Below, piece after piece: positions 3,158-21,855 of a stretch of DNA of 43,138 bases. The stretch's first letter is position 1. Each line of letters opens with the position of its first letter. The stretch is from a virus: positions 1 to 43,138 of the IMG/VR virus record IMGVR_UViG_3300014839_000018; one strand, given 5' to 3'. Made by a program: the position numbers and the translations under genes. The notes beneath the pieces are model-generated. The model had not been told where the DNA came from, searched no databases, and worked only from the letters and a program-made list of their open reading frames with translations.

Positions 3158-4069
3158 TTAATTGGAATTGATAAGAATTATCCCAGAGCCTCGAGTCGCA
3201 CCAGTCCCTGGAGTTATATACAACAGTATATTTTTTTCTTCTGTAAATGTATACATAGGATAAGTTACAAATTCAGAAATAATCATAGGAGTATTTTGTT
3301 CTATAGTCATTAACGTGTCTGCTCCTATGCCGTCTACTCCTATGCTTAAAGACGCACCCAGCCCGTCAAACTCCGTAAGTACACAAATAGCTATAGAACT
3401 AATCAAAGTTCCAGCCGGTATTGAAGCGATAATTGCAGGTGTGGCGTCTCCATAGGAAAATGGAAAAATGATTGCGCCGTCCGCACCATTTGTGCCCGGA
3501 GTCGCCGCAGGAAGCATGAGTTGCCACCAATCGTCTCCACCTTCCGCATCGGGAGCAGGCGCATATCCGGCCTGTATACAAACGTAAAGAGCTCCGTTAT
3601 ACGGCACCACGTCATTTACATTATAGCCGGTGCCCCCTGAGTATTCCGTGCGAGGACTGAAACCAATCCCGTCCGCACCATTTGTGCCCGGAGTCGCCGC
3701 AGGAAGCATGAGTTGCCACCAATCGTCTCCACCTTCCGCATCGGGAACAGGCGCATATCCAGCCTGTATACAAACGTAAAGAGCTCCGTTATACGGCACC
3801 ACGTCATTTACCCTATATCGGGTGCCCCCTGAGTATTCCGTGCGAGGATTGAAACCAATCCCGACCGCACCAGAAATCGAGTCCTTTACAAATGTATTAA
3901 CAGCGGATTGTACTGGAATTTCTGTACCGCTTGGATTTTCTCCTCCCATTGTAGCATCAGTGGATTTATCTGTTTCCTTAATAAATACACCAGGCTTTAC
4001 GGTTACACCTTTTGTATTATCTATAATGATTGTTTCATTGTCAACTACTAATGATACTGTTGTTCCCAT
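3158..4069 (-). CDS. Tail protein with duplicated CBM5/12-like carbohydrate-binding modules
   Basis: A 303-aa protein. Residues ~1-70 form an N-terminal segment. Two near-identical 64-residue modules follow, each running from 'PRTEYSGGT' through 'VNDVVPYNGALYVCIQAGY' to 'DDWWQLM' and a Gly/Pro collagen-like link 'PGTNGADG'. The aromatic pattern (Y...V...G..Y.C......P.......WW) fits carbohydrate-binding modules of the CBM5/12 type. The final ~85 residues share a domain with the next gene. The protein is expected at the tail tip, binding host or environmental glycan. The tandem copies are nearly identical at DNA level, indicating recent duplication or gene conversion. Confidence 0.78.
   Translation of the reverse strand: MGTTVSLVVDNETIIIDNTKGVTVKPGVFIKETDKSTDATMGGENPSGTEIPVQSAVNTFVKDSISGAVGIGFNPRTEYSGGTRYRVNDVVPYNGALYVCIQAGYAPVPDAEGGDDWWQLMLPAATPGTNGADGIGFSPRTEYSGGTGYNVNDVVPYNGALYVCIQAGYAPAPDAEGGDDWWQLMLPAATPGTNGADGAIIFPFSYGDATPAIIASIPAGTLISSIAICVLTEFDGLGASLSIGVDGIGADTLMTIEQNTPMIISEFVTYPMYTFTEEKNILLYITPGTGATRGSGIILINSN
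3478..3861 (-). repeat. 192-bp tandem duplication inside the CBM gene
   Basis: Two direct copies (about 3478-3669 and 3670-3861) with a 192-bp period, exactly 64 codons, differ at only a few positions. The phase keeps the reading frame, so copy number can change the number of binding modules without breaking the gene. The differing sites are scattered rather than adenine-specific. Confidence 0.9.
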
Positions 4070-5458: not shown

Positions 5459-8287
5459 TTATGCCAATCCTAATCTGTTTGAAATAGCTCCAGAATTATC
5501 GGCAATAAAATTGAGCATTGAATCCCTACCGCGTACAGATGAAAGATGTTTATCAATTAACCATGGGTCAACGATATTCGTTATATCAAATTTTGTAGGG
5601 GATGATTTCGTAACAATACCGCCAGTTTCCGTATGGGTAGTGACGGACATTGAAGTGCCTGCTGTAAACGAATTGAGCAGTTCTCTTGGAACTTGCTTTG
5701 TGCGTATAGCCTCCATAGCGCTGGAGCCGTAGTATTCGACTGATGAACGTGGATGTATATATTCCCCGCCTTCAGCATTAATATCGACGCCTCCACCACT
5801 GTGGCGCGCTCCATATATCTGCCCACCAGATTCCATTTTAATCTTTTTGATTCCAGCCTTCGCAGCTTCAAATAATCCAGTAATAGCCGTTGCCTGTAAG
5901 GCTCCGACAATTGCGCCACCTATCCATCCAGTAGGATTCAGCTCAATCTGCTTTAAGGTATTTGTTATTATTGTGGTAATAAGCATCTTTTCGGCAAAGC
6001 TGAGGAATATATCTATAATTTCAGTCAGAGCAGATTTTAAACCTTCTTTACCGCCTTCCGCAATTCCCTGCCCTATTGCAGAACCAATCTGTTGCCCAAT
6101 AGACATCATTTCTTGAGCTATATTATTATATTTATCAAGTATACTTTTTTCGTATTCAATTGCATATTTTTGATGTATGTTGATTATTTCTTCTTCTGAT
6201 TTTCCTGCAATTCTTGCTTGCTGTATTTCATACTGTTCTTGTAATAATATTAAATCATTTTGGTATCTGACTATTTCTTCTTTATCCCCATAAATTTTAC
6301 TCATTTCAAGGCTATTTTGTGTACTATTTATACCTATTTGAGTACGTTCAGATTGCTTCGATAATCCTAAATTTGATTCTTTATTATTATATTGTAAATT
6401 TATACTATCTGTTTTATCTGGGGATGCTGCCAATTCAGCTTCCCTTTGCTTTTTTAATATGCTAAGTTTTGCTTCATATTGTTCATTAAGTGAACGTGTT
6501 GTGGACGCTTGTAATTCTTCATATGCAATTGCTGCATCTCTATCAATTTGTTCTTGTTTTTTCTGGTAATCATTAATTATTAAATATTTTTTTTCTTCTT
6601 CTTCTTTTGTCAATTCAATAGCAGTATCACTACCTACAACCGCGGCATCTATTTTTTTTGCGTATTCTTTGTGAAGTTTTGAAAGTTCAAGATTTTTATT
6701 ATTCTCTAATGTATCCAATTTTTTCTTTGCAAGTTCATCCTCAAAGGATACATGCTCTAATTGTATTTCTTTTATTTTATTGGATTTTTCTTTTTCAAGG
6801 TCTTCCTCTTTAAGGGCATATACTTTTACAATATCACCGGTTTTTGCACCTTTTGTTTTTGCTTCTGTTAATGCTGTTTCTTTTTCAAGGTCAAGAAGTT
6901 TTTTCTTCTGTTCATACTCTTCATCTATTGATTTTACATGTAATAGCTGTAATGCTTGTAATTTTGTACCCCAGCCAAGTTGGAATTTTATACGTTCTTC
7001 TTCTTCTTTTGCACCTTTTTCTGTTTTATCCTTTGTACTTGATAATGACAGAGGAGGTGCCTTGCCGTTTGTAATATCTCTTTTTGTTTTTTCTTCTTCA
7101 TTTACTTTTGTTAAATGCTTGAAACCTTCCTCGAGTTCGGCATTTACTCTACGCTGGACAGCCACAACATCTTCACCATTTTTACCACCAGCAGTATCAA
7201 ATAGTTTTTGTCGTTCTGTACCTGTCCCACCAGAACTGTTTACCAATTTGTCAATAGCTTCTTTTTGCTTTTTAAGATTTTCTAATTTATTACCTGTTGT
7301 AACAGAATCAAGTCCATCGAATACTGCTCCCGCAGCATTACGTGCCTCGATTTTAACTTTACCCATAGCATTAGAAACAATCATTATTCCAGCGCCTATG
7401 GCAGCAAGTGCAGCGCCAACAGGACTGATAATAAAAGCCATTGTCAAGGCACAACCTATTGCGGTTATTGCGGCAATGATACCGGGAGTGCTTGTTACTA
7501 TATCGGTAAAACCTTTGACGGTAGGCTCTATCTGAGGGAGAACTTTATCCTTAAAGATACCAGTAAGTTCTACGAGCACTGGAATAAGACCTTCACCAAT
7601 GCCTTTTTTGATTTCGGACATCTGGTTATTCATTGTAATAAGCGGCCCGGCACCAAGTTTTGCAACCTCTTCGGCGGAACCCTTAACAGTTGGATTTAAC
7701 CCAGCGGTTAACAGACTTTCAAATCTTTCTACCTGTGAACCTGTTTTTTCCAATTCAATACCATAAGGTCTCAATCCGCGAGTGGTACCAAACTGTATAG
7801 CACGTGTAAATGCCTCTGTTGTACCTTCGAGACTTTTACCAGACTTTGCAGCAAAGTCCATTACTACCGGAATAAGTTGTTTTATCTGGTCAACAGATAA
7901 TTTATGCGTTTGCATTACCTTGGCAGCACTAAGAACTTCATCGTCATTAAAGCGTGTAACGGCTTTCTTTGCTTCAGCAAGTGTTTTTAGTTCCTCAGCT
8001 TGAGAACCATAAGCCTTAGTCAGCACAAACATCGACACAGCAATGCCGTCGTATTCCTTAATAGCATCAAGTACATAATTCTTAGCTTCCATTAATACCG
8101 ACTTAATAGCATCAGCAGATAAAAAGCTGGCGGTCATTTCCTTAAATGAATTACCAGCCTTTGCGGTACTCTCCCCAACCTTCGTTGCCATATTGGAAAC
8201 TTCAGACTGAACTTTTGAAAGTTGTTCTGTAAGTGTTCCAATATTTGCCTGTATACTGAGTATATATGAAGCGGTATTATCTGCCAT
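5459..8287 (-). CDS. Tail tape measure protein
   Basis: A 942-aa protein, longest of the tail genes. Residues 1-250 carry the usual N-terminal TMP region ('VLTKAYGSQAEELKTLAEA', then 'GTTEAFTRAIQFGT'). Residues ~260-310 are a hydrophobic Ala/Ile/Gly stretch able to span a membrane. A long Lys/Glu-rich coiled coil follows (~320-690), and then a second Gly/Ala/Ile hydrophobic region (~700-790). Tape measures set tail length and help DNA pass the membrane; 942 residues predicts a tail of roughly 140 nm. The start overlaps the preceding frameshift ORF by 11 bases, with GGAG seven bases before ATG. No lysozyme or peptidase motif was recognised. Confidence 0.93.
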   Translation of the reverse strand: MADNTASYILSIQANIGTLTEQLSKVQSEVSNMATKVGESTAKAGNSFKEMTASFLSADAIKSVLMEAKNYVLDAIKEYDGIAVSMFVLTKAYGSQAEELKTLAEAKKAVTRFNDDEVLSAAKVMQTHKLSVDQIKQLIPVVMDFAAKSGKSLEGTTEAFTRAIQFGTTRGLRPYGIELEKTGSQVERFESLLTAGLNPTVKGSAEEVAKLGAGPLITMNNQMSEIKKGIGEGLIPVLVELTGIFKDKVLPQIEPTVKGFTDIVTSTPGIIAAITAIGCALTMAFIISPVGAALAAIGAGIMIVSNAMGKVKIEARNAAGAVFDGLDSVTTGNKLENLKKQKEAIDKLVNSSGGTGTERQKLFDTAGGKNGEDVVAVQRRVNAELEEGFKHLTKVNEEEKTKRDITNGKAPPLSLSSTKDKTEKGAKEEEERIKFQLGWGTKLQALQLLHVKSIDEEYEQKKKLLDLEKETALTEAKTKGAKTGDIVKVYALKEEDLEKEKSNKIKEIQLEHVSFEDELAKKKLDTLENNKNLELSKLHKEYAKKIDAAVVGSDTAIELTKEEEEKKYLIINDYQKKQEQIDRDAAIAYEELQASTTRSLNEQYEAKLSILKKQREAELAASPDKTDSINLQYNNKESNLGLSKQSERTQIGINSTQNSLEMSKIYGDKEEIVRYQNDLILLQEQYEIQQARIAGKSEEEIINIHQKYAIEYEKSILDKYNNIAQEMMSIGQQIGSAIGQGIAEGGKEGLKSALTEIIDIFLSFAEKMLITTIITNTLKQIELNPTGWIGGAIVGALQATAITGLFEAAKAGIKKIKMESGGQIYGARHSGGGVDINAEGGEYIHPRSSVEYYGSSAMEAIRTKQVPRELLNSFTAGTSMSVTTHTETGGIVTKSSPTKFDITNIVDPWLIDKHLSSVRGRDSMLNFIADNSGAISNRLGLA

Positions 8288-8606
8288 TTAATTTCTCCAC
8301 GAAAGATTGAACTTGTTCAGGTTTAGATAATGCTTGTTTGCAATCTTCTTTTTCCGATAGTGTATCAAGAAACTTTTCAAAGTCTGAGGCATCTGCGCCG
8401 AATGCTACACGCAAAGCAACCGCACTATCCCGTATCTTATCTCGCTCAACTTGTATACATATTGCATAGTATGTCCAGACCTTATCCCAACTGTAAACAT
8501 TTAAAACATTATATTCCTTGTGCCCATTCCTGACAAGCAATACTACTGCTTTGCTGACTTCATTTCCTTTTGAATCATGTTCTTGAACGGGCTCAAGAAG
8601 TTTTTT
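8277..8606 (-). CDS. Tail assembly chaperone, frameshift extension (T part of a G/GT pair)
   Basis: This is the -1 frame continuation of the upstream chaperone gene. An independent ORF begins at 8693, but its first ~30 residues merely read the upstream gene out of frame and there is no convincing ribosome site. The useful coding part begins at the slippery A AAA AAC at 8606-8600. Shifting back one base there joins 127 residues of the upstream protein to 107 residues here, giving a 234-aa fusion. Such G/GT pairs just before the tape measure gene are a hallmark of siphoviruses, and the fusion recruits the tape measure and tail tube subunits. Confidence 0.82.
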   Translation of the reverse strand, partial: KKLLEPVQEHDSKGNEVSKAVVLLVRNGHKEYNVLNVYSWDKVWTYYAICIQVERDKIRDSAVALRVAFGADASDFEKFLDTLSEKEDCKQALSKPEQVQSFVEKLNGR

Positions 8607-8980
8607 AGGTAATTCACATTTTGTTTTACCATTGCAATAGCAATCTGTGAACAGACTTCGGGTGGTATCTGTTCCAATTCTTCTTTTGTACATCCAAGAG
8701 TTGTTACCATAAAACTTGGAAGATACTGCATAAATACAAATAGTAAATCAGTTAATGCCGATTCATCCTTTTCATCAACAATGCTTTCCAATTTACTGGA
8801 TGTAAAGTTGCGTTGTTTCAATTCGTGGTATATCATTTCAAATATCCTTGACATGCCAGCAATTTGAATTATCGTCCAGGGCTTCACAAGGTACTTACCT
8901 ATTGTAACCCCACCATTAAGAAATAGAGAAGCGTCCGCATTGGACGCTCCTCCCGTTGCCTTTTGTTTCTTCGTAGTCAT
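8543..8980 (-). CDS. Tail assembly chaperone (G protein)
   Basis: A 145-aa protein between the tail tube and tape measure genes, a conserved slot for the tail assembly chaperone. It is helical, with 'GVTIGKYLVKPWTIIQIAGM' near the start, a phrase seen in chaperones at this locus. Most ribosomes should stop at TAG (8543-8545) and make this short form. A minority should shift at 8606-8600 to make the longer product. The start ATG follows an AGGAGTGCTCC sequence. Confidence 0.82.
   Translation of the reverse strand: MTTKKQKATGGASNADASLFLNGGVTIGKYLVKPWTIIQIAGMSRIFEMIYHELKQRNFTSSKLESIVDEKDESALTDLLFVFMQYLPSFMVTTLGCTKEELEQIPPEVCSQIAIAMVKQNVNYLKNFLSPFKNMIQKEMKSAKQ
8579..8606 (-). promoter_or_regulatory. 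Programmed -1 ribosomal frameshift site with hairpin
   Basis: The heptamer AAAAAAC (8606-8600) is in the upstream frame as CTA AAA AAC, the canonical X XXY YYZ arrangement. Immediately after it, TTCTTGA and TCAAGAA form a perfect 7-bp stem with a 6-nt loop (8599-8580). The usual 5-9 nt spacer is missing, so the base of the stem may have to melt. The -1 frame stays open to 8277. Confidence 0.85.
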
Positions 8981-9920: not shown

Positions 9921-10376
9921 TTATAAAATGACATTGTAAGGATTTCCCCTTACCGTTAGATAATCAACATCAAAATTCATAAGGTACCCATTAAAATCAT
10001 TATACCCATATATTCTGGTAGCACTTACGCAATTTATCTTTTTTGCATAATCCCATATTTTATTTTCACGGGACCATGTTTGCAATTTAATAAGTATTTC
10101 AGCATATAGAGTATCTATTAAAAGCATGTTATCCAGTGTAGTATCAATCTCGGTATATAATTCTAATTGCAATTGGAAAGTGCTTTCAACTTTGTTCTGC
10201 GTTAATTTAAAAGATTCATTCATATCCGCAATGATACATAGCGGATGTAGACACGCATCCCACGTCGTTCCACTTGGTGGATTAAGTAATACTGTACTTA
10301 CACCTGGAATGCTCTCCACACACTCTTGTATCGACCGCATAAGTAATGTTTTAACTGGTATTTTTTCAGTACTCAT
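9921..10376 (-). CDS. Tail terminator/completion-like protein
   Basis: A 151-aa protein placed between the HK97 gp10-like gene and the tail tube. It has an N-terminal helix ('IPVKTLLMRSIQECVESIPG') followed by strands ('FQLQLELYTE'), then a long helix ('LLIDTLYAEILIKLQTW') and a strand-rich end, the order expected of the small tail-terminator fold. It overlaps the upstream gene by four bases. No direct motif; assignment rests on context and secondary-structure pattern. Confidence 0.62.
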   Translation of the reverse strand: MSTEKIPVKTLLMRSIQECVESIPGVSTVLLNPPSGTTWDACLHPLCIIADMNESFKLTQNKVESTFQLQLELYTEIDTTLDNMLLIDTLYAEILIKLQTWSRENKIWDYAKKINCVSATRIYGYNDFNGYLMNFDVDYLTVRGNPYNVIL

Positions 10377-10996
10377 TTTAGTTCACTCTGCGCCTCTCGT
10401 AGCATTTTAGGAATTTCCTTAAAAAGAATATCAGGACTCGTTCTTGCTTTAAAGGTAATTTGTCTTACAAGTGCGAACAGCGGAACAAAACCACCTTTTG
10501 ACTGCCCCGATTTTTCCCCTTTTGTATACATCTTTTTTCCACATATTACTAACCCATGTAAACCACGAATGACAAACGTATGCCCGAATTTCGATTCATC
10601 TCTTGGACTACCGATTGCTTGTCCATAAGTACCTTGTGCCGCTGGAAGAGGTATTGCTAAGTATTGTCCATTTTTTGGACGAATCGTATGTGTTTTCCCA
10701 TCGAATAACATGCCACCGTAATTTGTACCTATGTCAATTCCGCCTTCAACATAATTACCTTTTGTCTCAGCGGGATGTACTCGTACGTTTCTTGCAAGTT
10801 CCGAAGTCCTTTTCATTATTTTATTTTCTGGACTTCTCTCGCCCCGTCTACCCTGTATAAATACCGTAGTACGGATATATCCCTGCATTTTCAAAGATAT
10901 TAAATTAATGGTACGTATTAGACACTTTTCTTCGTTATGCTGTATACCCAACAGCCATCTATTTATATCCTCTTTACTTTTGAGTATAACAGCCAT
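10373..10996 (-). CDS. HK97 gp10-like head-tail joining/neck protein
   Basis: A 207-aa protein. Early residues form a long helix ending 'LKMQGYIRTTVF', followed by a strand region around 'GTNYGGMLFDGKTHTIRPK', where the 'Y...ly.GT..i.p' wording is typical of gp10-like neck proteins that plug or join the tail to the connector. The length exceeds the ~120-150 aa minimum because of a loop between ~100 and 180. It sits directly downstream of the connector genes and starts 1 nt after the preceding stop. Confidence 0.65.
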   Translation of the reverse strand: MAVILKSKEDINRWLLGIQHNEEKCLIRTINLISLKMQGYIRTTVFIQGRRGERSPENKIMKRTSELARNVRVHPAETKGNYVEGGIDIGTNYGGMLFDGKTHTIRPKNGQYLAIPLPAAQGTYGQAIGSPRDESKFGHTFVIRGLHGLVICGKKMYTKGEKSGQSKGGFVPLFALVRQITFKARTSPDILFKEIPKMLREAQSELK

Positions 10997-10997
10997 A

Positions 10998-11243
10998 TTA
11001 ATTCCTATCTATACCGAAAACATCTTTAAATGTTTGTGCTTGACTATTAGTATTAATAGGCTTAACAACTTTACCATTAATATAATCTTCTTCAAACTCT
11101 TCATATATCCCCTGTACGGTAACAACGATACCATTTACGTCCTTAACTTTCCATGCAAATAACGACCTATCTGGTGGTACAGACAATACATCATCAGGTG
11201 AATAAATTAAAGGTATAGGGGTATAAGGATATAAATCACTCAT
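10998..11243 (-). CDS. Small head-closure-like protein
   Basis: An 81-aa protein between two connector genes. It begins 'MSDLYPYTPIPLIYSPDDVLSVPP' and contains 'WKVKDVNGIVVTVQGIYEEF', a short beta-rich pattern. The slot matches a head-closure or stopper protein in siphovirus gene order, but no motif confirms this. The gene starts two bases after the preceding stop, so expression is likely coupled. Confidence 0.55.
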   Translation of the reverse strand: MSDLYPYTPIPLIYSPDDVLSVPPDRSLFAWKVKDVNGIVVTVQGIYEEFEEDYINGKVVKPINTNSQAQTFKDVFGIDRN

Positions 11244-11245
11244 AA

Positions 11246-11632
11246 TTAATCTTCTTCTGTTGCAATCATTATACGTTTGTAAGGATCGATGATGTCTTTT
11301 ACCATTTGTAAAAGACCACCAGATTCGTTCTTACTTACTCCGCCATCACGGAAGTTTACATTTTGGATACCTATATCTTTGCGCCGTTTCCATTCATAAG
11401 TACATTGTAAAGCACAAGCCCTTGACACGTCAGCAGTCGGTGCAGTATTATTATACTCACTATTATTCATATAAACAATTATCTGAGCGGTAACTTCCTC
11501 TATTAAATCAGCAAGGTCTTCTTTTGTATCATCGTCAGTTGTTACTACCTTAGGAGTACCAGATAGAAAACTTTCGCCAAGGTATTGCTTTCTCAATAAT
11601 TTATCTACAGTGCAAAATGCAGGTGCAGTCAT
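11246..11632 (-). CDS. Head-tail connector (gp6-like) protein
   Basis: A 128-aa, mainly helical protein. It starts 'MTAPAFCTVDKLLRKQYLG' and has 'DLADLIEEVTAQIIVYMNN', then 'SRACALQCTYEWKRRKDIG', the A-rich helix followed by basic residues common to gp6-like adaptor proteins that dock on the portal. It is the first neck gene after the two glycosyltransferase genes and overlaps the upstream stop by four bases. Confidence 0.68.
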   Translation of the reverse strand: MTAPAFCTVDKLLRKQYLGESFLSGTPKVVTTDDDTKEDLADLIEEVTAQIIVYMNNSEYNNTAPTADVSRACALQCTYEWKRRKDIGIQNVNFRDGGVSKNESGGLLQMVKDIIDPYKRIMIATEED

Positions 11633-12525
11633 AATAATTTTTTCCTTACTTCTCTAAAAACTTCGCCAACAGTTATACTCTGTAAACACTCGATTTTATT
11701 ACACTGCATATATGTGCCATCATTATGGCACGGCTGACATGGAAAATGTTTACGAATAATATTTGCCGTTCCATTAATAGGTCTATTTTTAACAAATGAC
11801 GTGCCACCCCATAAAACAATCATAGGAACTTTAAGGGCATCCGCTATATGCATATTCCCGGTATCTGTTGTTATAAATAAATCAAGACTATTAATCATTG
11901 TAGCGTTCTCAAGCATTGTATGTCCAGCGTAATCCACGTCGTATACGTTAACGTTTGATAGTTCCTTATAGTATCCGACCTTAACAAGCTCAATATCGTT
12001 TCCATACCACCCTTTGAGCGTCCCACAGAGTTGTGGAAAGTAATTCCATTTTTTCATTACTGCTATGTTACCAAAACCGCCATTACATACACCAATCCGT
12101 ATTTTTGTAGTATCTTTTTCCATTGGCGTATATGGACAATACTGCTCAGGCTTTTTTCCAGTGTACCCGTAGTATTTTTTTACTATTGAGAAATAATAAT
12201 CTGTCTCATGGGTCTTTTCGTGGTTCCATTGTTCGTCAGAATAAGGATGTTTACTTTTGAAATAGTTGTAAGCGTCTCCGCCACAAGTCCAGGTTGTATA
12301 AAAGTATTCATCAAATTTTCTTTTTTTACATTCCTCAAGACTTATTACCTCACTAATAAAAGGCATTGCTTTCATTAGACAAAGTAAATCAGTATATCTT
12401 GGGTCATTATTGTTATTAATACAAAGAGTAATTTTATCAGAATGCATTGAAGCAAGAGCCCGTAACGCTGGAGTATACTCAATAAAATTACCAATGCCTG
12501 AGGAGAAGAATGCTACACAAGACAT
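11629..12525 (-). CDS. GT9-family (heptosyltransferase-like) glycosyltransferase
   Basis: A ~298-aa protein. Start chosen at ATG 12525 because GAGGTGG lies just upstream; an in-frame ATG at 12543 has poorer context. The N-terminus has 'SGIGNFIEYTPALRALASM', the glycine loop and proximal helix of GT9 enzymes. The C-terminal half has 'MINSLDLFITTDTGNMHIA', 'VPMIVLWGGT' and 'CQPC', matching the nucleotide-sugar half of heptosyltransferases. GT9 enzymes use a B-type fold to add sugars. It overlaps the preceding glycosyltransferase by 13 bases, and the pair sits between capsid and connector genes. The substrate cannot be read from sequence; capsid or tail protein, or a host surface glycan, are possible. 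Confidence 0.82.
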   Translation of the reverse strand: MSCVAFFSSGIGNFIEYTPALRALASMHSDKITLCINNNNDPRYTDLLCLMKAMPFISEVISLEECKKRKFDEYFYTTWTCGGDAYNYFKSKHPYSDEQWNHEKTHETDYYFSIVKKYYGYTGKKPEQYCPYTPMEKDTTKIRIGVCNGGFGNIAVMKKWNYFPQLCGTLKGWYGNDIELVKVGYYKELSNVNVYDVDYAGHTMLENATMINSLDLFITTDTGNMHIADALKVPMIVLWGGTSFVKNRPINGTANIIRKHFPCQPCHNDGTYMQCNKIECLQSITVGEVFREVRKKLL

Positions 12526-13448
12526 TTTTCCACCTCTTTCCAAAACAAATAAGGAGCGGCATTAAGAGCTGGCAATAACTGTTCTTTATTGTTCCAAAAT
12601 TCCCACGAGGTATGTCCGCAGGTATCATTGGTATGAACAGTTGCGCCGGCCAGGATTGCCTCAAGTAAAACTCTACCGCCCGTCTCATTACATTCAGGGC
12701 AATGGTAAACATGCTTTACCTGTTGCATATAATTAATAGTATCTATATAACACATATCTCCACCGAATACGATTTTATCACAAGCGTAATCAAACGGATT
12801 TATTTTGTCAAGGTCTTTCTGTTTTAACGGAACAGGAACAAACAGTACATTCTCATTCTTCCGTTCTACAGGTTTAAATAAACTTGTTTTTATACATAAA
12901 GGCAATGCCATAATATTCAGAGTACCATAATTCTTTTGCATAAACAGTGCGTGCGCTGGAGAAAGGCACATAATAAGTTTCGTGTTCTTCGCAAGCTCGT
13001 TTGGTATCTTCCGGTAATCGTGCGAAAATAGTACATACTTTTTACCTGATTTTATAATAGCATCAGCAAGCCCTAAGTTACCTATAATGTTATTTACAAT
13101 TATTAATTCGCATTCGTCTACCAGTTTTTCAAACTTTCCAATATTACATACACCAACTATATCAAATCCGAGGTTATTACCTATTTCAACGGTAAAAGCA
13201 TTTGTAAGTTCTGCCCCACCTACTAATCCATGAGTATCTTGTACCCATAGTATTTTATTACCAGCACCGACATAATTTTCTTTTGTAAGGTATGAAGTAT
13301 CGACGATAGAATCGGTATTGATACTTTCTATAATTTCAACCAATCCTTGATTCTCCAAAGTACGCGCTTCATGTAACGTAAGGAATATATGTTCCCCATG
13401 CTTCTGCGCCAGCATTCCAAGACATTTACATTTAATAGTATTACTCAT
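12513..13448 (-). CDS. GT4-like glycosyltransferase
   Basis: A 311-aa protein. Residues ~1-55 form a small N-terminal module ('HIFLTLHEARTLENQGLVEI'). The glycosyltransferase part begins about residue 60: 'KILWVQDTHGLVGGAELTN' holds the GGAE phrase of GT4 enzymes, and 'CNETGGRVLLEAILAG' (residues ~253-268) has the paired glutamates (E255, E263) that bind the sugar nucleotide. The N-terminal half is shorter than in typical GT4 proteins. It is the first gene after the major capsid protein, separated by a terminator-like hairpin, and no strong ribosome site is visible. Cytosolic; acceptor unknown. Confidence 0.75.
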   Translation of the reverse strand: MSNTIKCKCLGMLAQKHGEHIFLTLHEARTLENQGLVEIIESINTDSIVDTSYLTKENYVGAGNKILWVQDTHGLVGGAELTNAFTVEIGNNLGFDIVGVCNIGKFEKLVDECELIIVNNIIGNLGLADAIIKSGKKYVLFSHDYRKIPNELAKNTKLIMCLSPAHALFMQKNYGTLNIMALPLCIKTSLFKPVERKNENVLFVPVPLKQKDLDKINPFDYACDKIVFGGDMCYIDTINYMQQVKHVYHCPECNETGGRVLLEAILAGATVHTNDTCGHTSWEFWNNKEQLLPALNAAPYLFWKEVEKCLV

Positions 13449-13515: not shown

Positions 13516-14892
13516 CTACGACGCTTTCGCAGCGGCAAGTATTTTGAATGCATACGATGTACCGGGCATACCATCCATACGAGCTATCATACGAAGTGCT
13601 GTTTCGTTTTCAAGCCAGTAAGGTGCATCCGAAACGTCAATACGCATATCCATACGGGTGGCAAGCATATACATGGACATATCGCCAATAACAACGTCAC
13701 CAGTTGTTCCGAGAACCGGAACGTTACGAGTAACGTGGTAAGGATGTCCGAGAATTGATTTTGTCAATATCGGAGTATCATTACGCTCTGCCCATGATTC
13801 ACGTACCAAATACTCACCTGTTCCGTCCGCATTAACACGTTCCGCACGTACCTTTGCAACCGTTGCCCGACGGGTAAGCCATGACAATTTGTCATCACCA
13901 AAGGCTTCATCAACAGCGCCTTCAAGATTGATGAAATCGTCGCCGGATACTTTACCAGCTGCTTTACGTTTAACAGCATTTGCCCGTACAATCGGGTCTG
14001 TTATAATACCAAGGAATTCGTTCGTTCCGTTACCGGAAATTATCATCGCTTCCAGTTTGTACTGAAATGCGCGGATATAAAGGGCAGCAGTATAATTAAG
14101 GATGTTGATAATCGAATCCTGCTGCAATTCTTCCGTGATTGCAGTATGTCCAGCAATCTTTTTTGCCCGGAAGATGTTCTGTTCCCATTTTGTTTTTGTT
14201 CCGGTACCAACCGTACCTTCCGATACAGCAGGCAATCCGTCACACGTCATGTATACACCGCCGAAATAGTTACCGTTTTCGCCCTGCGACAATTTCGGAA
14301 AACGTATTTCATTGGAAGACATAGGAACACGCCATACCTGAGACAGGATAGGACTGGTAGCAATAGCGAACTCCACAACGATTGCCGCAAATTCAACAGG
14401 GACTGTGAATCCTCCGTCTGCGTTAACTGCTTCACCATTGTACGTTGCCGCTTTGTTAATACCGAATGCTTTTGCATTCTTCACACAAAGGTCTTCATAA
14501 GAACCATAATTGAAATCGTGCCTCAGGCCCTTCATTTTATTCCAGCCTTTAAGCATGACACCGAACTGGTACATTGCAGGAGATACACTTTTGAACAGAC
14601 CAGAACCGGACAATGCGGCAGAACCTATTGCAGCATTACCGCGTGCATCACCAGGAGCAAACGATTTCTGAACCTGAGTCATTACCGAAAGAATTTCCGG
14701 ATTGATAACAGTATCAGCAAATGTTTTCAGTTCCTGTGCATCAAGGGCTTCCTTGGAATTGGCATTCGGGAAAATTGCCTTCATCTGCATCTCGCCGAAG
14801 TCTTTCTGGATTTTTTCAACAGCAGAATGGACAACCGCTATATCTGCTGAATTAATTTCCTTTACAATTGCTTCCAACTCTTCTTTTTTCAT
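13516..14892 (-). CDS. Major capsid protein, HK97 fold
   Basis: A 458-aa protein directly after the prohead protease. Residues ~1-100 are helical and charged ('KKEELEAIVKEINSADIAVV'), fitting a scaffold-like delta domain that the protease may remove. The body shows the HK97 order: 'GGFTVPVEFAAIVVEFA', 'WRVPMSSNEIRFPKLS', a helix with 'AITEELQQDSIINILNY', 'FQYKLEAMIISGNGTNEFLG', and a C-terminal 'VVIGDMSMYMLATRMDMRID'. 'GNGTNEFLGI' is the typical P-domain turn. Main shell protein of the head. A weak AAAG precedes ATG. Confidence 0.95.
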   Translation of the reverse strand: MKKEELEAIVKEINSADIAVVHSAVEKIQKDFGEMQMKAIFPNANSKEALDAQELKTFADTVINPEILSVMTQVQKSFAPGDARGNAAIGSAALSGSGLFKSVSPAMYQFGVMLKGWNKMKGLRHDFNYGSYEDLCVKNAKAFGINKAATYNGEAVNADGGFTVPVEFAAIVVEFAIATSPILSQVWRVPMSSNEIRFPKLSQGENGNYFGGVYMTCDGLPAVSEGTVGTGTKTKWEQNIFRAKKIAGHTAITEELQQDSIINILNYTAALYIRAFQYKLEAMIISGNGTNEFLGIITDPIVRANAVKRKAAGKVSGDDFINLEGAVDEAFGDDKLSWLTRRATVAKVRAERVNADGTGEYLVRESWAERNDTPILTKSILGHPYHVTRNVPVLGTTGDVVIGDMSMYMLATRMDMRIDVSDAPYWLENETALRMIARMDGMPGTSYAFKILAAAKAS

Positions 14893-14910: not shown

Positions 14911-16155
14911 TTAGGTTTCAATTTCGAGGTCGATTTCGTCCCCGTTTGCAACCAGTGTTTTGTTTGTTTTTTCAAGTAATGCTTTTTTAATTTCTTCTGC
15001 GTCAGGACTGTTATCATTATCTTCAATAGTAAGACCTATATCGTCAGTGTCCTGTTCACTGCCGGTACTATCTTCTATTGATATATCAAGTTCATTTTCG
15101 TCTTTTGCGGTCGCTGGAGTAAGTTCCTTTTTTTTAGGGACGGCATAGGCTTCAAAGGCATTGTTTACAACCTGCTCAACCGTCTGAGTAAGTGTCTGTT
15201 GTAAACCACCTATAAACCGAGCTATCTCTGTTGTCGGTTTATCCACGCTACCACCACCAGCCCTTCCAGTATGCCCATGATTTCCACTTCCCATTCCGCC
15301 CTTAGCCTGGAAATCTTTCTGCTGTGTTTCGGCAAGTGCTTTCTGTTCTACTGTTCCGTACCGTTGGCTAATTAGCGCTTTTATATAATCAATAATACGG
15401 GGTACTGCATACTCTTTAAACTCATCGATCAAAGCTGTTACCTGTTCGGTAGGGTCAAAGTCCGAAGCATTGCCTGACCATACCAGATTGTAAATCTCAG
15501 AATCGAGTGCGGACATGAGGCAGTTATAACTCGCATAAGGTTCGGAGGTAGCAAGCCTTGAGCCAATAGATTTCTCTATCGTACCCGGTAATAATACTGC
15601 CTTTTCTTTTTTAGGCTCTTCTGTAAAGCCAAAAACAGGTATATGCTTATCACACGCCTTGGCATCATCAGTTAAAGATTTGAAGGTCGCTTCCTCATTT
15701 GCACCAACAGCAACCTGAGAATATTCATGCATTAGCCATTCGGTAATTTCCTGCCCGCCGCCTGTCACTGGAGTTGACTTAACAACCGAGAAGCCAACAG
15801 ACCAATTCGGCATGAACTTATCACGACATTTTTCAAACAGTCTTCGGCCGGTATTATCGGGAGGAGTAAGATGACTACCATCATAGTATTTTGTAGTGAC
15901 GAGAATACCTTTAACACCATTCTCATTTGTACCTACACCGATACTGATGGGTCTTGCAATAGGCTCCATGCCCTGTGTTTCATCCTGCCCGTGTTGTTTA
16001 AGGACAACAACTTGTCCGCGTGTACGCATACCGTCAACGCGCATAATATCGCCATCTGAATCCTGTGTTTCCGTGGAGATAAAATGGGTAATGGTAAGTT
16101 CCTTATCATTGAACTCCTTTATCTGCGCGGGAAATTGTTTGTGCAATGTTTTCAT
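14911..16155 (-). CDS. Prohead serine protease with C-terminal scaffold-like extension
   Basis: A 414-aa protein. Residues ~10-165 carry the prohead protease pattern: H55 in 'VVLKQHGQD', S119 in 'MPNWSVGFSVV', then 'EITEWLMHEYSQVAVGANEEA'. The latter corresponds to the W.l.E.S.V..pAN motif. Residues ~165-285 are a charged middle. At about 288-305 a Gly/His-rich motif 'KGGMGSGNHGHTGRAGGG' appears, related to the 'KGGPGSGRYP' phrases in the portal polyprotein. The last ~100 residues are acidic. The protease trims capsid and scaffold proteins during head maturation. GGAGG lies six bases before ATG, overlapping the upstream stop by one base. Confidence 0.9.
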   Translation of the reverse strand: MKTLHKQFPAQIKEFNDKELTITHFISTETQDSDGDIMRVDGMRTRGQVVVLKQHGQDETQGMEPIARPISIGVGTNENGVKGILVTTKYYDGSHLTPPDNTGRRLFEKCRDKFMPNWSVGFSVVKSTPVTGGGQEITEWLMHEYSQVAVGANEEATFKSLTDDAKACDKHIPVFGFTEEPKKEKAVLLPGTIEKSIGSRLATSEPYASYNCLMSALDSEIYNLVWSGNASDFDPTEQVTALIDEFKEYAVPRIIDYIKALISQRYGTVEQKALAETQQKDFQAKGGMGSGNHGHTGRAGGGSVDKPTTEIARFIGGLQQTLTQTVEQVVNNAFEAYAVPKKKELTPATAKDENELDISIEDSTGSEQDTDDIGLTIEDNDNSPDAEEIKKALLEKTNKTLVANGDEIDLEIET

Positions 16156-16592
16156 TAAAGACCTCCGGTTATATCTAAAAGATTTTTTAAATAGGTTGCA
16201 TGGTGAACTTCGTCCTTGAGTATTCCCAGCGCAAGAATTTCAGATTCATAGAATCCGTTTTCTCTGCAAAATCGGATAATGTTTTTATACTTATTAATTG
16301 CAACCAATTCAGATTGATACATTAATTTAAGTATGTCTATATTGTCAATGGCTGTCTTTACTTCAGAAGTCATTGTAGTAATATAACCACCCAAATAATC
16401 CAGGTGTTCCCGAATCAGCTTGGCATGCCCGGTTTCTTCATCTCCATGTTCTATTATCTCAGCTGCTGTTAAAGCGTATAGGAGCGTGAAACGATTAGCA
16501 CCCTGATAATATAGTACTGAGGCTGCTTGCTCGTCGGATAGCGTGTCATTCCACAGCTGTATCAGCTCATTTTTGTTTGACTGGTTTTCCAT
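16155..16592 (-). CDS. Ferritin-like di-iron four-helix protein in the head operon
   Basis: A 145-aa, almost wholly helical protein. The four-helix di-iron signature is visible: E21 in 'LSDEQAASVLYYQ', E53-x-x-H56 in 'GDEETGHAKLI' followed by 'LDYLGGY', E95 in 'MYQSELVAINKYK', and E128-x-x-H131 in 'LKDEVHHATYL'. This is the E...ExxH...E...ExxH arrangement of bacterioferritin-like proteins, at about the normal length. These proteins bind two irons and oxidise Fe(II) or reduce peroxide or oxygen. It lies between portal and prohead protease genes and is translationally coupled to the protease. No clear encapsulin cargo peptide is seen at the C-terminus (ends DITGGL). Structural cargo, host-directed enzyme or repurposed fold are all possible. 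Confidence 0.85.
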   Translation of the reverse strand: MENQSNKNELIQLWNDTLSDEQAASVLYYQGANRFTLLYALTAAEIIEHGDEETGHAKLIREHLDYLGGYITTMTSEVKTAIDNIDILKLMYQSELVAINKYKNIIRFCRENGFYESEILALGILKDEVHHATYLKNLLDITGGL

Positions 16593-16648: not shown

Positions 16649-19600
16649 TTATTCTGCACCGTCTTCGGTGTTTTCATTTGTATCTTCCTCTGATTCGTCA
16701 ATTGAAAAATAATAATATATTTCATCATCTTTACTTTTGGAAGAATCCTTTGGATAGTATATTTTACTTGGCTTTATACTATCAAGTTTTGAATCATCAA
16801 TGTCTTTAATATCAGTATATTTATAGCTCTCAATTCTAATAATATCTTTCGGTAAAATATTTTTCGTTTCGGTCTGGTGCCCAGTTGCTAAACCAAAAGA
16901 AATATCATCCTCCATAGCTTTCGAGTTTATTACAACTATTATAAGATTTCTCTTATCAATCGGAATATCTTTATTTGCTCTTTCTTTTGCATAATCCATG
17001 GCCAATGCTTTATTATTGGTAGCATATATTTTACATTCAAAGCTTCGTTTACTTGTCTTTTCTACAAGTAAACCTTCCTTCAATATTTTATTCGCTGCTG
17101 CTTTACTTGTGCCGTGGTATACTTCCCCAGAACCTTCCGGATATCTTCCTGGGCCTGGGCCGCCTTTAAAAGATTTTTCAGCATCTTTTGTATCGTATAC
17201 CAGCATACATCGGCAATTACAGTTCTCTTCTGCAAGGGAACCATTTCCCGGACACGACATGCTGTCACCGCCTACCTCAAAGTCTTCGCTTATAGGTATA
17301 CCATCGGAATACTTATCGGCGGCTTCTGCATGGGTATCTCTGGCATCCGGCTCAGCTACCCATATCTTCACTAACACATCTTCCAATCCCATTTGTTCTA
17401 CGGCGTCAAGTTCGGCATGAGAACAGGCGGATGTCGTTTCTGTACGGGCTATAAGGTCACTCCGATATTTTTCTTCTGTGATAAACACATCCGCGATATT
17501 CTCACTCATCGTCAGTATGCTTGCACCGTCCTCAAAATCCTTAGACAAAGAGGATTCTACCTTATCCGCCATGGTATCGGTTACGCTGGTAGATAACTCA
17601 CGTAAACGAGTACCAATATATTTTTGTACTTTCGGGTCATTAACATTATACTTAAACTTAGCAGCCTTTGTGCCAGCAGTTAACGTATCAACCATTTCAT
17701 CCGCAATATCCTTATTAATCTTTTCCATAACTGGCTTAATTCTATTTTGTATAGTCTTAGCCATTTCCTTCTTATCAAAACAAAGACCTTTTATTTTACC
17801 GTTGTTATCTTTTAGCCACTTCTGTCGATTGCTTTTAGATACCACGGATATGGAACACTTTACCGGAACAGCTTTCTTTTCTATGTTGTCAATAACTTCT
17901 TTTTTCATAGCAGAAAAGATACCAGCAAACGCCTTAGTATAAAGAGGCTCATATGCCTTTGCCGTCGTGTCAAATTTCTTCCATAGCTTTGTCTTCTGCT
18001 CGGTAGTCATTGACTTGATACTTTTAACTGGTAAGGACTTTTCCTCCTCCTCTTCTTCTTCCTTACTTTCATCAATTACGAAAAAGCAATAAATTTCATC
18101 ATCTTTACTTTTGGAAGAATCCTTTGGGTAATATATTACAGGTGAAGAATAATCTTCCTTTTCAATATCAGTATATTTATAAACTTCTATTCTGATAATG
18201 TCTCTATTGGATACATTTTTTTCAGCTATTTTATACGTGGTACTTTCTGGATTAACTTTAAAAGCGGATGATTTACATACTACAATAGCCAATTGCTTAT
18301 CTTTTAAAATTTCCGGTGTTGTACCCATTCTTCTCGTAGTGACTCTGGCATAACTAAAAGCTACGGATTTATCGTCTGTCGCATATACCTTCGCACCGCC
18401 TAATGAATTTTTATCTCCAACTTGTAACCCATCAGATAATATTTTTTCTGCTGCTTCTTTACTTGTACCATGATATACTTCTCCGCTTCCTGACGGATAC
18501 CTACCTGAGCCTGGGCCGCCTTTACTTTGTATACTACCTTCTTCAGTCGGTACTTCCGCTGGAGTAGCCTCTGGTTTTGTCTCGCCAGTATACTGCTGTA
18601 GGTTAAAAGGAATCCAAGGCATATCTCCCCATTTAACAGGCTCGAGGTCTTTTGCTGCGCGTATCTCATTAATGGTCTTTACATATGCGCCAAGGTCTTC
18701 CATGTTCTCTTGTTGTATCTGGTCGTTTTCAAACTTCGGTAATATAAAGTCAATAACGAAAGCCGGGTCAAATAACTTGGCAAGGTCTCTTGTCAAGTAT
18801 TGGCACATAAGTTTTGAGGTAGGAGAAATCGTTTCATTGATATAGTTTTCGTTTACCGTATCCAGATTAGAACGATTCTGTACATCAACCAATCCTACTT
18901 TTCCGGCAGATATATCATGTGCGGATAATATTCTATCACGCACCATATGCTCTATCTCTTTAACCATCATCTCCCGTGTTGTAGAACGTACTGGAGTATC
19001 GAATTTAAGGCCAGAGTGTAATACATTTGCCTTACCGGAATTTATACCGCCTTGGAATATTTTCCGTACCTGTTGTCTCAAAGATTTAAAAGCGTCATCG
19101 GTCAGGCTTTGTTCCGTAGTAAGAGTGTTACCCATTACGGCATGATTCTTCATAAACTCAGATTGCTGGTTTAGCAAATAGGTATCAATATTGAAAGATG
19201 ATAACTGCGATTTAATAGCCGACATTCCTTCGTACGGATTTCGTAGACTATTATATTTTATCCAGATAATTTCTTCATTCGTAAACTCTTGCCGGATGTT
19301 TCCATCTGTATACATATACCCGCGTATCATCTGCTTACCGTCACGACCTGGCAAAGGCTTTAAATCACCCGTCCACGTAGTCGGTATATTATACATAGAT
19401 ACGGGGTACTTAGAAAACAATCCAGGTACTTTATAGATACCAATAGAGCCAGTTAATTCAAGTCGTATAACTGCACCATGCCAAAAGTTAAATTCTATTT
19501 CATCACTGTTCGGTGAACAAAGCAAAGCGGTTAAATCCGAATCATCAACCGCTATGCGTGCCATACCATTATCTTTGAGGAACTGTCTTCGCTGATGTCT

Positions 19601-19936
19601 TGGTAATGTATCGTATGACTTAATAAGAGGATGGTAAGACTTTAATGATTTACCTAATGCACCACCCTGAGGTTTTTTCTCGAATCTGTAAACCATTTTA
19701 GGAAGACCGGCAATAGTTCTGGCTTTCTTTTCAATAGCAGTATATACCCAGCCCGTATACTTATTTGCCAACTGGTAGAAGTTCAGTAAAGGCTGAACAC
19801 CCGTATCAGTATAGGCGGTATACATACTTGGTATAATATCGTGTATCATTTCCATTTCAGCAGCTAATTGGTTTTGTGCCTGTGGTGTCGTTATTGCTTT
19901 ACTGCCGAAGATCTTAAAAGGAAAATGTTTTGCCAT
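16649..19936 (-). CDS. Portal protein fused to ADP-ribosyltransferase, MuF and a second ADP-ribosyltransferase domain
   Basis: A 1095-aa chain from ATG 19936; an in-frame TTG at 19966 would add 10 residues but is less likely. Residues ~1-450 are a phage portal ('KYTGWVYTAIEKKARTIAGL', 'EEIIWIKYNSLRNPYEG'). Residues ~472-622 are an ART-like domain with H489 in 'EVYHGTS', Y518 in 'KVYATDD' and E584 in 'RDIIRIE', the HYE catalytic set. Residues ~640-915 are a MuF head-morphogenesis domain ('SDLIARTETTSACSHAE', 'DARDTHAEA', 'CPGNGSLAEENCNCRC'). Residues ~923-1082 repeat the ART domain with H941, Y971 and E1036. Each ART is preceded by 'KGGPG(S/P)GRYP' and followed by an acidic tail. Both ARTs appear catalytically intact. 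ART attached to MuF suggests a packaged effector. Confidence 0.85.
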   Translation of the reverse strand: MAKHFPFKIFGSKAITTPQAQNQLAAEMEMIHDIIPSMYTAYTDTGVQPLLNFYQLANKYTGWVYTAIEKKARTIAGLPKMVYRFEKKPQGGALGKSLKSYHPLIKSYDTLPRHQRRQFLKDNGMARIAVDDSDLTALLCSPNSDEIEFNFWHGAVIRLELTGSIGIYKVPGLFSKYPVSMYNIPTTWTGDLKPLPGRDGKQMIRGYMYTDGNIRQEFTNEEIIWIKYNSLRNPYEGMSAIKSQLSSFNIDTYLLNQQSEFMKNHAVMGNTLTTEQSLTDDAFKSLRQQVRKIFQGGINSGKANVLHSGLKFDTPVRSTTREMMVKEIEHMVRDRILSAHDISAGKVGLVDVQNRSNLDTVNENYINETISPTSKLMCQYLTRDLAKLFDPAFVIDFILPKFENDQIQQENMEDLGAYVKTINEIRAAKDLEPVKWGDMPWIPFNLQQYTGETKPEATPAEVPTEEGSIQSKGGPGSGRYPSGSGEVYHGTSKEAAEKILSDGLQVGDKNSLGGAKVYATDDKSVAFSYARVTTRRMGTTPEILKDKQLAIVVCKSSAFKVNPESTTYKIAEKNVSNRDIIRIEVYKYTDIEKEDYSSPVIYYPKDSSKSKDDEIYCFFVIDESKEEEEEEEKSLPVKSIKSMTTEQKTKLWKKFDTTAKAYEPLYTKAFAGIFSAMKKEVIDNIEKKAVPVKCSISVVSKSNRQKWLKDNNGKIKGLCFDKKEMAKTIQNRIKPVMEKINKDIADEMVDTLTAGTKAAKFKYNVNDPKVQKYIGTRLRELSTSVTDTMADKVESSLSKDFEDGASILTMSENIADVFITEEKYRSDLIARTETTSACSHAELDAVEQMGLEDVLVKIWVAEPDARDTHAEAADKYSDGIPISEDFEVGGDSMSCPGNGSLAEENCNCRCMLVYDTKDAEKSFKGGPGPGRYPEGSGEVYHGTSKAAANKILKEGLLVEKTSKRSFECKIYATNNKALAMDYAKERANKDIPIDKRNLIIVVINSKAMEDDISFGLATGHQTETKNILPKDIIRIESYKYTDIKDIDDSKLDSIKPSKIYYPKDSSKSKDDEIYYYFSIDESEEDTNENTEDGAE
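16720..18127 (-). repeat. Direct DNA repeats marking the duplicated ART domain
   Basis: A 34-bp stretch at 16720-16753 recurs exactly at 18094-18127. Further similar blocks encode the 'GGPG.GRYP.GSGEVYHGTSK' entry to each domain (about 17102-17162 and 18454-18526). The interval between copies holds MuF. Conservation at the DNA level indicates that the ART module was duplicated recently or is homogenised. Confidence 0.85.
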
Positions 19937-19959
19937 TTGTTCACCATTCTTAATAAGTA

Positions 19960-20379
19960 TCACCAAGATATTTTAACAAGTTTTTTATCACTGAAATTCT
20001 TTGATATTTTTATGAGTCCGTAATCAAAGCATACAAGTTGATTTCCAATAAATCCAAAGTTATCTATTTTAATATCATTAAAGAAAGAAGGTATTTTTTC
20101 GGGATAATCTTTCTTACGGCCTATCTCAACTTTTTTCTGTAATAATATTTTTCCATCATTACTTATATGGGTACATGGAGCAAACCACTTTGCAAGAGGT
20201 GTGTGTTCTACCTCTTTCCAAATTGCCCACTCTTTTACATTCTGAAAATAAGCCTCATATTTTTCAATCTTAACTACCAGTGTTGTATCCACTGCACACC
20301 AGTATACATCTCGATAACACCCACAATCTATATACCGAGCAATTAAAATATCCTTATATGCTTGTATACTTATATCCAA
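19960..20379 (-). CDS. Minimal protein-kinase-like protein
   Basis: A 139-aa protein starting directly after the large terminase stop. It carries the ordered kinase residues in very compact form: a Gly-loop-like 'DCGCYRDVYWCAV', K37 in 'TLVVKIE' (VAIK lysine), E50 in 'NVKEWAIWKE' (helix C), hinge-like 'LLQKKVEIG', D102-x-K-x-x-N107 in 'NDIKIDNFGF' (HRDLKxxN equivalent) and D119 in 'VCFDYGL' (DFG equivalent). Normal kinase domains are about 250 aa, so most of the C-lobe is absent. Small kinase-like proteins occur in some phage genomes near packaging genes. Activity, substrate, or a purely structural role are unknown. Confidence 0.7.
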   Translation of the reverse strand: MDISIQAYKDILIARYIDCGCYRDVYWCAVDTTLVVKIEKYEAYFQNVKEWAIWKEVEHTPLAKWFAPCTHISNDGKILLQKKVEIGRKKDYPEKIPSFFNDIKIDNFGFIGNQLVCFDYGLIKISKNFSDKKLVKISW

Positions 20380-21855
20380 TTACCATTCCTCTTCATCATT
20401 ATCATTTACTCCAACAGAGAATACACCAGGTACTTTCTGAGTATTTATATATAGGTAAGACAGCGCTTGCGTCATCATATCTACCTGGTCATCGTGCGCT
20501 CCGTTTGGAAATTGTTTTATTTCGGTAAGAAAATCGGCAACCCAAGGATACATAGTTGTTTCTGGAAAGTATACATTACCTGCATCGAAGTAAACGGTAA
20601 CCGCTTCTGCACGTGCTTCTTTACTTTCGGTAGGATTCACTGGAATAATGCCAGCAATTTTATCCTTGAGTACTTGTATGATAGCAGTGCCATTGCTCTT
20701 ATCTTCAATTAACTTTGCACCAGCCATTGGGTATTTAACTACCATCATCTTGAACTTCTGTATTGTGGTAACGAAATCAAACAGTCCTTTGCAAGCGTCA
20801 AGAAAATAAACATTCGCACCAAGTTTACCCCATACTCCAATACTAACAGGGTCACTTGTTTTTTTATCCTTAAAGGAACTATCTAAAGACAGTATAATTT
20901 TGTCAAATTTTCTCGGTAAACTTGCTGCATTATAGTACTGAAATGATTCTTCTTTAAAGATAATGCCTTCTTGTGCCGAAGGATGCTGTTGATATAGGGC
21001 CTCAAAGCGCATTGGGGACATTCTACGGGCATCTAACAGCTTTTGATGACTATGGCGTAAGGGCCATAGTGCTTCATCATACTGGCGCGTGTCCTCTGCT
21101 GTCCTATTATAAGTATCTTTTAGTGCTGGTATGGATATGATTTCCCATTTCGCTGCTTCTTGCTTATCGGCAAGGATTCTGCCAACTAAGTCGTCCTCAT
21201 GCCACCTGGTCATGATAACTAATTGCTTGCTTCCATTATGTAAACGGGTAGTGAATACCGTAGTATACCACTCCCATATTGATTGACGTACAACTTCAGA
21301 TTTCGCTTCCTGGTAATCTTTAATAGGGTCATCTATTATCCCAAGGTCAACAGTCTTTCCAGAAAGTGGTCCGCCTATACCAACAGAATTGAAATAGCCT
21401 TCATACCCTACTATTTCAAATATGTCACTATTCTTTAAATAACTACCACGGGCATCTGTAGATATATTCTTTGTATTGAGCTGTGTCTTAGGAAATAACT
21501 CTGCATATTCCGGAGTCTGTATAATTCGTTGACATTGTCTGTTCAGTCCGGATGCTAAGTCTGAACTATAAGCACAAACGGCAATTTTAAGATTCGGATT
21601 TCTTCCGAGTGCAAACGCTGGAAAGCGGCGTGAGGTTAATTCGGATTTACCATGTTGTGGTGGTAGATTTATTATGAGGTTTTTTGCATTCTTATCTGTA
21701 AGGAGGTTGTCAAGTCTTGAAGCTATATACTTATGAAACCCCATGATACTATACTTAGGGTAAGTATATTCCGTAAAATCAATTAAGAAACTGCGAGCCA
21801 GTTCCTTATTAACTTCCGGAAGTATCTCCATCATCTGTTGCATTTGTAGAGACAC
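20380..21855 (-). CDS. terL: Terminase large subunit
   Basis: A 491-aa protein that starts with GTG 21855, preceded by AAGGGG at eight bases. The ATPase half has Walker A 'LPPQHGKSE' (residues ~64-72), Walker B 'LGIIDDP' (D175, D176) and coupling-type 'VIMTRWHEDDLVGRIL'. The nuclease half has acidic residues in 'ILSLDSSFKDK', 'LIEDKSNG' and 'GAHDDQVDMM', the RNase H-like triad. It pumps DNA into the prohead and cuts genome ends. It overlaps the small terminase gene by 47 bases. Confidence 0.97.
   Translation of the reverse strand: MSLQMQQMMEILPEVNKELARSFLIDFTEYTYPKYSIMGFHKYIASRLDNLLTDKNAKNLIINLPPQHGKSELTSRRFPAFALGRNPNLKIAVCAYSSDLASGLNRQCQRIIQTPEYAELFPKTQLNTKNISTDARGSYLKNSDIFEIVGYEGYFNSVGIGGPLSGKTVDLGIIDDPIKDYQEAKSEVVRQSIWEWYTTVFTTRLHNGSKQLVIMTRWHEDDLVGRILADKQEAAKWEIISIPALKDTYNRTAEDTRQYDEALWPLRHSHQKLLDARRMSPMRFEALYQQHPSAQEGIIFKEESFQYYNAASLPRKFDKIILSLDSSFKDKKTSDPVSIGVWGKLGANVYFLDACKGLFDFVTTIQKFKMMVVKYPMAGAKLIEDKSNGTAIIQVLKDKIAGIIPVNPTESKEARAEAVTVYFDAGNVYFPETTMYPWVADFLTEIKQFPNGAHDDQVDMMTQALSYLYINTQKVPGVFSVGVNDNDEEEW

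Follow-up and report, generated by a model that had tools for sequence, protein, structure and literature searches.

The window analysed here, an entire virus record of 43,138 bases, encodes a ferritin-like di-iron protein of 145 aa (16155–16592, minus strand) in the middle of a phage head operon. This raises the question of what a phage does with a ferritin at this position: the protein could handle iron or peroxide in the infected cell, travel in the virion, possibly in the manner of encapsulin cargo, or lend its fold to virion assembly. We conclude that the gene is probably a genuine phage tool against iron and oxygen damage.

The listed head and tail genes around the ferritin all lie on the minus strand. 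They are, in order, a large terminase (20380–21855; PF03237/PF17289, phrog_38 3.5e-111), a gene of 139 aa, a portal-MuF fusion of 1105 aa with two ADP-ribosyltransferase-like inserts (16649–19966; PF04860 4.6e-35, phrog_2662 1.9e-65), the ferritin, a prohead (head maturation) protease (14911–16155; phrog_80 2e-14, PF04586 0.016), an HK97-fold major capsid protein (13516–14892; PF05065 2.7e-38), two glycosyltransferase-like genes (11629–13448; PF01075 on the second gene, and synteny), and connector and tail genes. The fusion matches PF04233 at 1.8e-6, slightly below the cut-off of that family, and has PARP/KptA matches too, while the first 156 aa of the protease are 50–56% identical to those of relatives. 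The portal stop and the ferritin start are separated by 56 bases, and the ferritin stop overlaps the protease ATG as TAATG, with a GGAGGT site just upstream. From this spacing, the overlap and the GGAGGT site we infer that the ferritin is co-translated with the head proteins. Two further tail-region proteins (99–1463 and 3158–4069, minus strand), with a laminin-G-like/DUF2341 domain and a chitin-binding-type CBM5/12 module, are likely to bind carbohydrates.

The ferritin ORF starts with ATG and was assigned to Ferritin (PF00210) with E=7.5e-13 and 49 bits, against a cut-off of 24.5; the ferritins of relatives score 67–83 bits. The predicted di-iron ligands are E21, E53xxH56, E95 and E128xxH131. 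Their spacing of 32/3/39/33/3 residues nearly equals the 33/3/39/33/3 of the solved mini-bacterioferritin (E16/E49/H52/E91/E124/H127), and Y28 and Y102 align with the two ligand-supporting (second-sphere) tyrosines of that protein, which hydrogen-bond glutamates (PMC13168243). An AlphaFold2 model, computed as a single chain from an alignment with five phage homologues, has a pLDDT of 92.1 and a pTM of 0.87, with four helices at residues 2–34, 37–66, 84–112 and 115–142. Foldseek grouped the model with di-iron ferritins (probability 1.00), the best solved match being 2qqy, a di-iron ferritin-like protein of Bacillus anthracis (TM 0.88/0.91); the mini-bacterioferritin 9qq5 was matched with TM 0.88/0.94 and an rmsd of 1.1 Å. 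In a single-sequence PDB search 2qqy was again the nearest protein (E 8e-8). A loose regular expression for the di-iron motif is not decisive by itself, because it also matched 4 of about 4,150 control ORFs by chance; the Pfam score, the model and the conservation described below decide the matter and rule out a chance motif. Contamination of the contig by host DNA was likewise ruled out, as the record is phage throughout and the gene occupies the same position in relatives. The sequence-only reading had described a full E...ExxH...E...ExxH signature at normal spacing in a four-helix protein of 145 aa, encoded between portal and prohead protease and coupled to the protease start, and all of these points are borne out.

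Syntenic relatives were found by terminase and portal scans of IMG/VR, capsid-only and ferritin-only scans being poor finders; a single-sequence ferritin scan of IMG/VR gave no matches, and alignment queries were needed. The ferritin homologues of other phages are 29–41% identical to the window protein. They lie between portal and protease in contigs L083 (41%), L085 and its near-copy L086 (31–32%) and L087 (29%). In L090 the gene comes immediately after a portal from the same family, the contig ends at that point, and the terminase is of another kind. In L091 it is found between a GpA-type terminase and a lambda-type portal, i.e. in an unrelated type of head module. The recurrence beside head genes of other phages that had been put forward as a check was thus found. 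The same strand and a tight coupling to portal or protease are seen in L083, L090 and the window. The close relatives L082 and L084 keep the head module, lack the ferritin gene and have other genes in the slot, and PF00210 gave no matches in 42 terminase relatives and 23 more distant portal relatives (65 records, many of them fragments). On the portal tree, ferritin presence requires two changes, compared with a mean of 5.5 after shuffling (0 of 500 shuffles as low), consistent with a single gain and a single loss. The ferritin has remained part of the head operon in relatives that are very divergent. Among isolated phages, tblastn with five members found no close relatives beyond host-chromosome-like records or stretches without annotation (Salmonella and Acinetobacter bacterioferritin, Pseudomonas Y5, faecal fragments), and the 21 matches of a genome scan for prophage copies all resembled ordinary cellular mini-Bfr and Bfr.

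The seven phage ferritins group in a single clade (100/100) that excludes the 12 cellular relatives drawn from a scan; cellular relatives beyond those 12 could be closer kin of the phage clade. The window protein diverges most, on by far the longest branch (1.87), and keeps every site residue. The seven-protein alignment has 20 invariant columns, and that these take in all eight di-iron-site residues has a chance expectation of about 3e-8. Between L085 and L086 the gene shows 7 silent and 2 replacement changes (pN/pS about 0.08) and is thus under purifying selection in this comparison. Use of the fold solely for virion assembly, one of the two options of the sequence-only reading, is unlikely, because the seven proteins, divergent as they are, share all six ligands and both second-sphere tyrosines without exception; an intact di-iron site under selection favours iron oxidation over a purely structural fold. 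Judged from their sequences, canonical di-iron ferritins, and not just Dps, have been adopted by tailed phages.

With a profile of the phage proteins, the solved matches ranked in the order mini-bacterioferritin (1.3e-22), 2qqy, Bacteroides fragilis DpsL and Bfr. The mini-bacterioferritin of Ca. Methanoperedens (9qq4/9qq5; PMC13168243), which in vitro takes up iron when supplied with Fe(II)/H2O2, consists like the phage proteins of a four-helix bundle only, without E helix or tails, and its canonical di-iron site agrees with theirs in the tyrosines and almost exactly in spacing. Its published signature comprises His29, Gly34, the haem-binding Met52 and the absence of tails. The window protein lacks terminal extensions (its helices span 2–142 of 145 residues) but has none of the three residues: T54 occupies the haem-binding Met position (Met52 of the family alignment), and G31 and a non-Gly residue occupy the His29 and Gly34 positions. 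The other six phage proteins have both His29 and Gly34; at the Met position five have I/L and only L087 has M, so that the haem ligand is absent in six of the seven. The seven phage proteins moreover form a separate clade. The DpsL or dodecameric thioferritin type (2vzb of B. fragilis; 8w1e, PA4880) shares the canonical di-iron site, the lack of haem and the 12-mer state, the last being a prediction for the phage proteins. However, DpsL is defined by an extra helix in the B-C loop, where residues 67–83 of the phage model are coil, and similarity scores are lower. Because the three signature residues and the DpsL helix are absent, we regard the window protein as a haem-free relative of mini-bacterioferritin and not as a member of that family as defined; a haem-binding mini-bacterioferritin is ruled out. 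The Bacillus anthracis sigma-B operon protein 2qqy, although the best match in both fold and single-sequence searches, is the product of a cellular gene with only about 27% identity.

Phage genes of the ferritin superfamily are already known, as Dps and manganese catalases have been published from Gratiaviridae, Lactobacillus phages and Streptomyces phages. They resemble the present gene in being phage-carried and thought to lower oxidative stress, and Dps differs in belonging to another family with an inter-subunit iron site. The Dps gene of L. plantarum phages lies near replication genes (PMC6669764), and the accessible portions of the literature on phage Dps and Mn-catalase genes describe no head-operon location. 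Since gut-phage Dps and manganese catalase have been interpreted as lowering oxidative stress (PMC8008677), the most economical reading by analogy would be a late-made, haem-free ferroxidase of mini-bacterioferritin/DpsL type, likely a 12-mer, that limits iron and peroxide damage during infection. On the strength of sequence, predicted fold, site conservation, position and clade, we give it a probability of roughly 0.55. The ferritin would be produced late, together with the head proteins, and would probably assemble as a 12-mer. Fe(II) would be bound at the di-iron centre and oxidised by O2 or H2O2, and the resulting Fe(III) stored. Free iron and peroxide may thereby be lowered at the time when phage DNA fills the infected cell, so that DNA and host metabolism would be protected until lysis. 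The ferritin would then be an accessory gene in a head-operon slot rather than a structural part of the head. Counting against this ferroxidase are that, among the scanned proteins of the window, no other was recognised as related to iron or oxidative stress, and that the window protein is the most divergent one and lacks the His29 and Gly34 typical of 12-mers.

The other contents of the slot bear on this reading and on its rivals. In the relatives, the slot also holds a DXD glycosyltransferase (L083), methyltransferases (L085 and L087) and a papain-type peptidase (L087), the last a separate gene right after the portal (10376–11155). Such accessory enzymes count for an accessory ferroxidase. 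In the more distant L119, L125 and L127 the portal-protease interval is nearly closed or holds unrelated genes (a 571-aa repeat-rich protein, HNH-like proteins), which indicates a general insertion site. The glycosyltransferase-like pair downstream of the capsid gene (11629–13448, minus strand) is retained in L083, L084 and L087 at 27–43% identity, suggesting glycosylation tied to the head module. Many members of the ferritin superfamily are oxygenases, and with glycosyltransferase and methyltransferase genes in the same slot the protein might be a di-iron oxidase of an organic substrate, e.g. a sugar or lipid made with these neighbours. We give this only a slim chance, as sequence and fold fit the storage-type Bfr, mini-bacterioferritin and DpsL and not oxygenase families, and the ferritin is constant while its partner genes vary among relatives.

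The portal next to the ferritin suggests a different partner. Its ADP-ribosyltransferase-like segments (about residues 490–605 and 935–1085 of the fusion at 16649–19966, minus strand) each follow a GGPGSGRYP/GGPGPGRYP-type linker and an EVYHGTS motif. In L084 the portal (5681–8623) has a C-terminal domain with an HExxH motif (HEIAHSF) instead; enzyme-like domains thus seem to be exchanged at the C-terminus of the portal. MuF toxin genes usually have small ORFs behind them (PMC5576092), and an ORF of <150 aa directly downstream of a MuF protein with such domains might encode its immunity partner. The chance of this is negligible: the portal-MuF protein directly ahead of the ferritin in L083 has no such insert, a conserved di-iron site would have no role in such immunity, and the persistence of the ferritin gene where toxin-like domains are absent rules out a MuF immunity protein.

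An oxidative-stress ferroxidase leaves one feature in need of comment, namely that the repeated portal adjacency, including that in the unrelated L091 module, could reflect a head-linked role beyond an accessory function. The ferritin would then be a virion protein, in the head or at the portal, shielding packaged DNA, or injected unfolded with the DNA. In keeping with this, the gene has the portal or the protease as a neighbour, is inherited in part together with the portal and recurs beside the portal of a second head module. The neighbouring portal, with its MuF and ADP-ribosyltransferase domains, is of a class for which packaging and injection have been proposed (PMC5512222; PMC5576092), and BFVD holds putative ferritin-like folds in entries named prohead protease. 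Three such entries of 333–763 aa (A0A6J7WPK9, A0A6J7WIS1 and A0A6J7XDU5) match the ferritin model over 137–151 columns with TM 0.73–0.82 by query length; they are possibly ferritin/Dps-protease fusions in uncultured phages. The ferritin has, however, no N- or C-terminal extension able to target the capsid, and its slot also houses glycosyltransferases and methyltransferases, which are not necessarily virion proteins; the variety of accessory enzymes there weakens position as an argument for a head function. A folded ferritin 12-mer, moreover, would not pass through a phage tail. Purified phage can contain traces of host bacterioferritin (PMC9206674). We consider a virion protein unlikely, though with an appreciable chance, and its more specific form, a ferroxidase built into or onto heads, kept with the portal-protease module and shielding packaged or incoming DNA from iron and peroxide, rather improbable. 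A role in virion assembly or in the iron loading of tail parts, the 'ferrojan horse' proposed for the Phyre2-predicted ferritin gp217 of Vi01-like phages that was detected by mass spectrometry (PMC10892097), is very improbable here. The one host tested in that study showed no dependence on the host iron pathway, the window gene is in the head region and not with tail fibres, and L082 and L084 have the same head module without ferritin.

Encapsulins offer a precedent for a ferritin-like protein encoded near an HK97-fold shell (PMC8346489), and the sequence-only reading had proposed that either of its two options would link phage heads and encapsulin-type compartments. Cargo is loaded by a short C-terminal peptide in Family 1 encapsulins and by an N-terminal domain in Family 2 (PMC8346489). 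In contrast, the chains of the seven phage ferritins stop only a few residues after the last helix and have no N-terminal extension in common, and the partner shell is a PF05065 phage capsid amid terminase, portal and protease, part of a full phage module and not an encapsulin shell. On these features, membership of the encapsulin cargo is ruled out. With neither a targeting peptide nor a shared N-terminal extension, with mini-bacterioferritin, Bfr and DpsL as the closest solved relatives, and with a slot that holds varied accessory genes, the proposed link finds no support; loading into the capsid by another route is possible.

The phage ferritins thus constitute a clade of their own, in which the haem site is absent in nearly all members. 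If the ferritin controls iron or peroxide in infection, as we favour, oxidative stress would be a cost, and one that these phages pay to relieve. Should it be present in the virion, it would allow a direct test of how HK97-type shells acquired ferritin cargo, and with a head-borne ferroxidase the phage head would parallel ferritin-loaded encapsulins in function.
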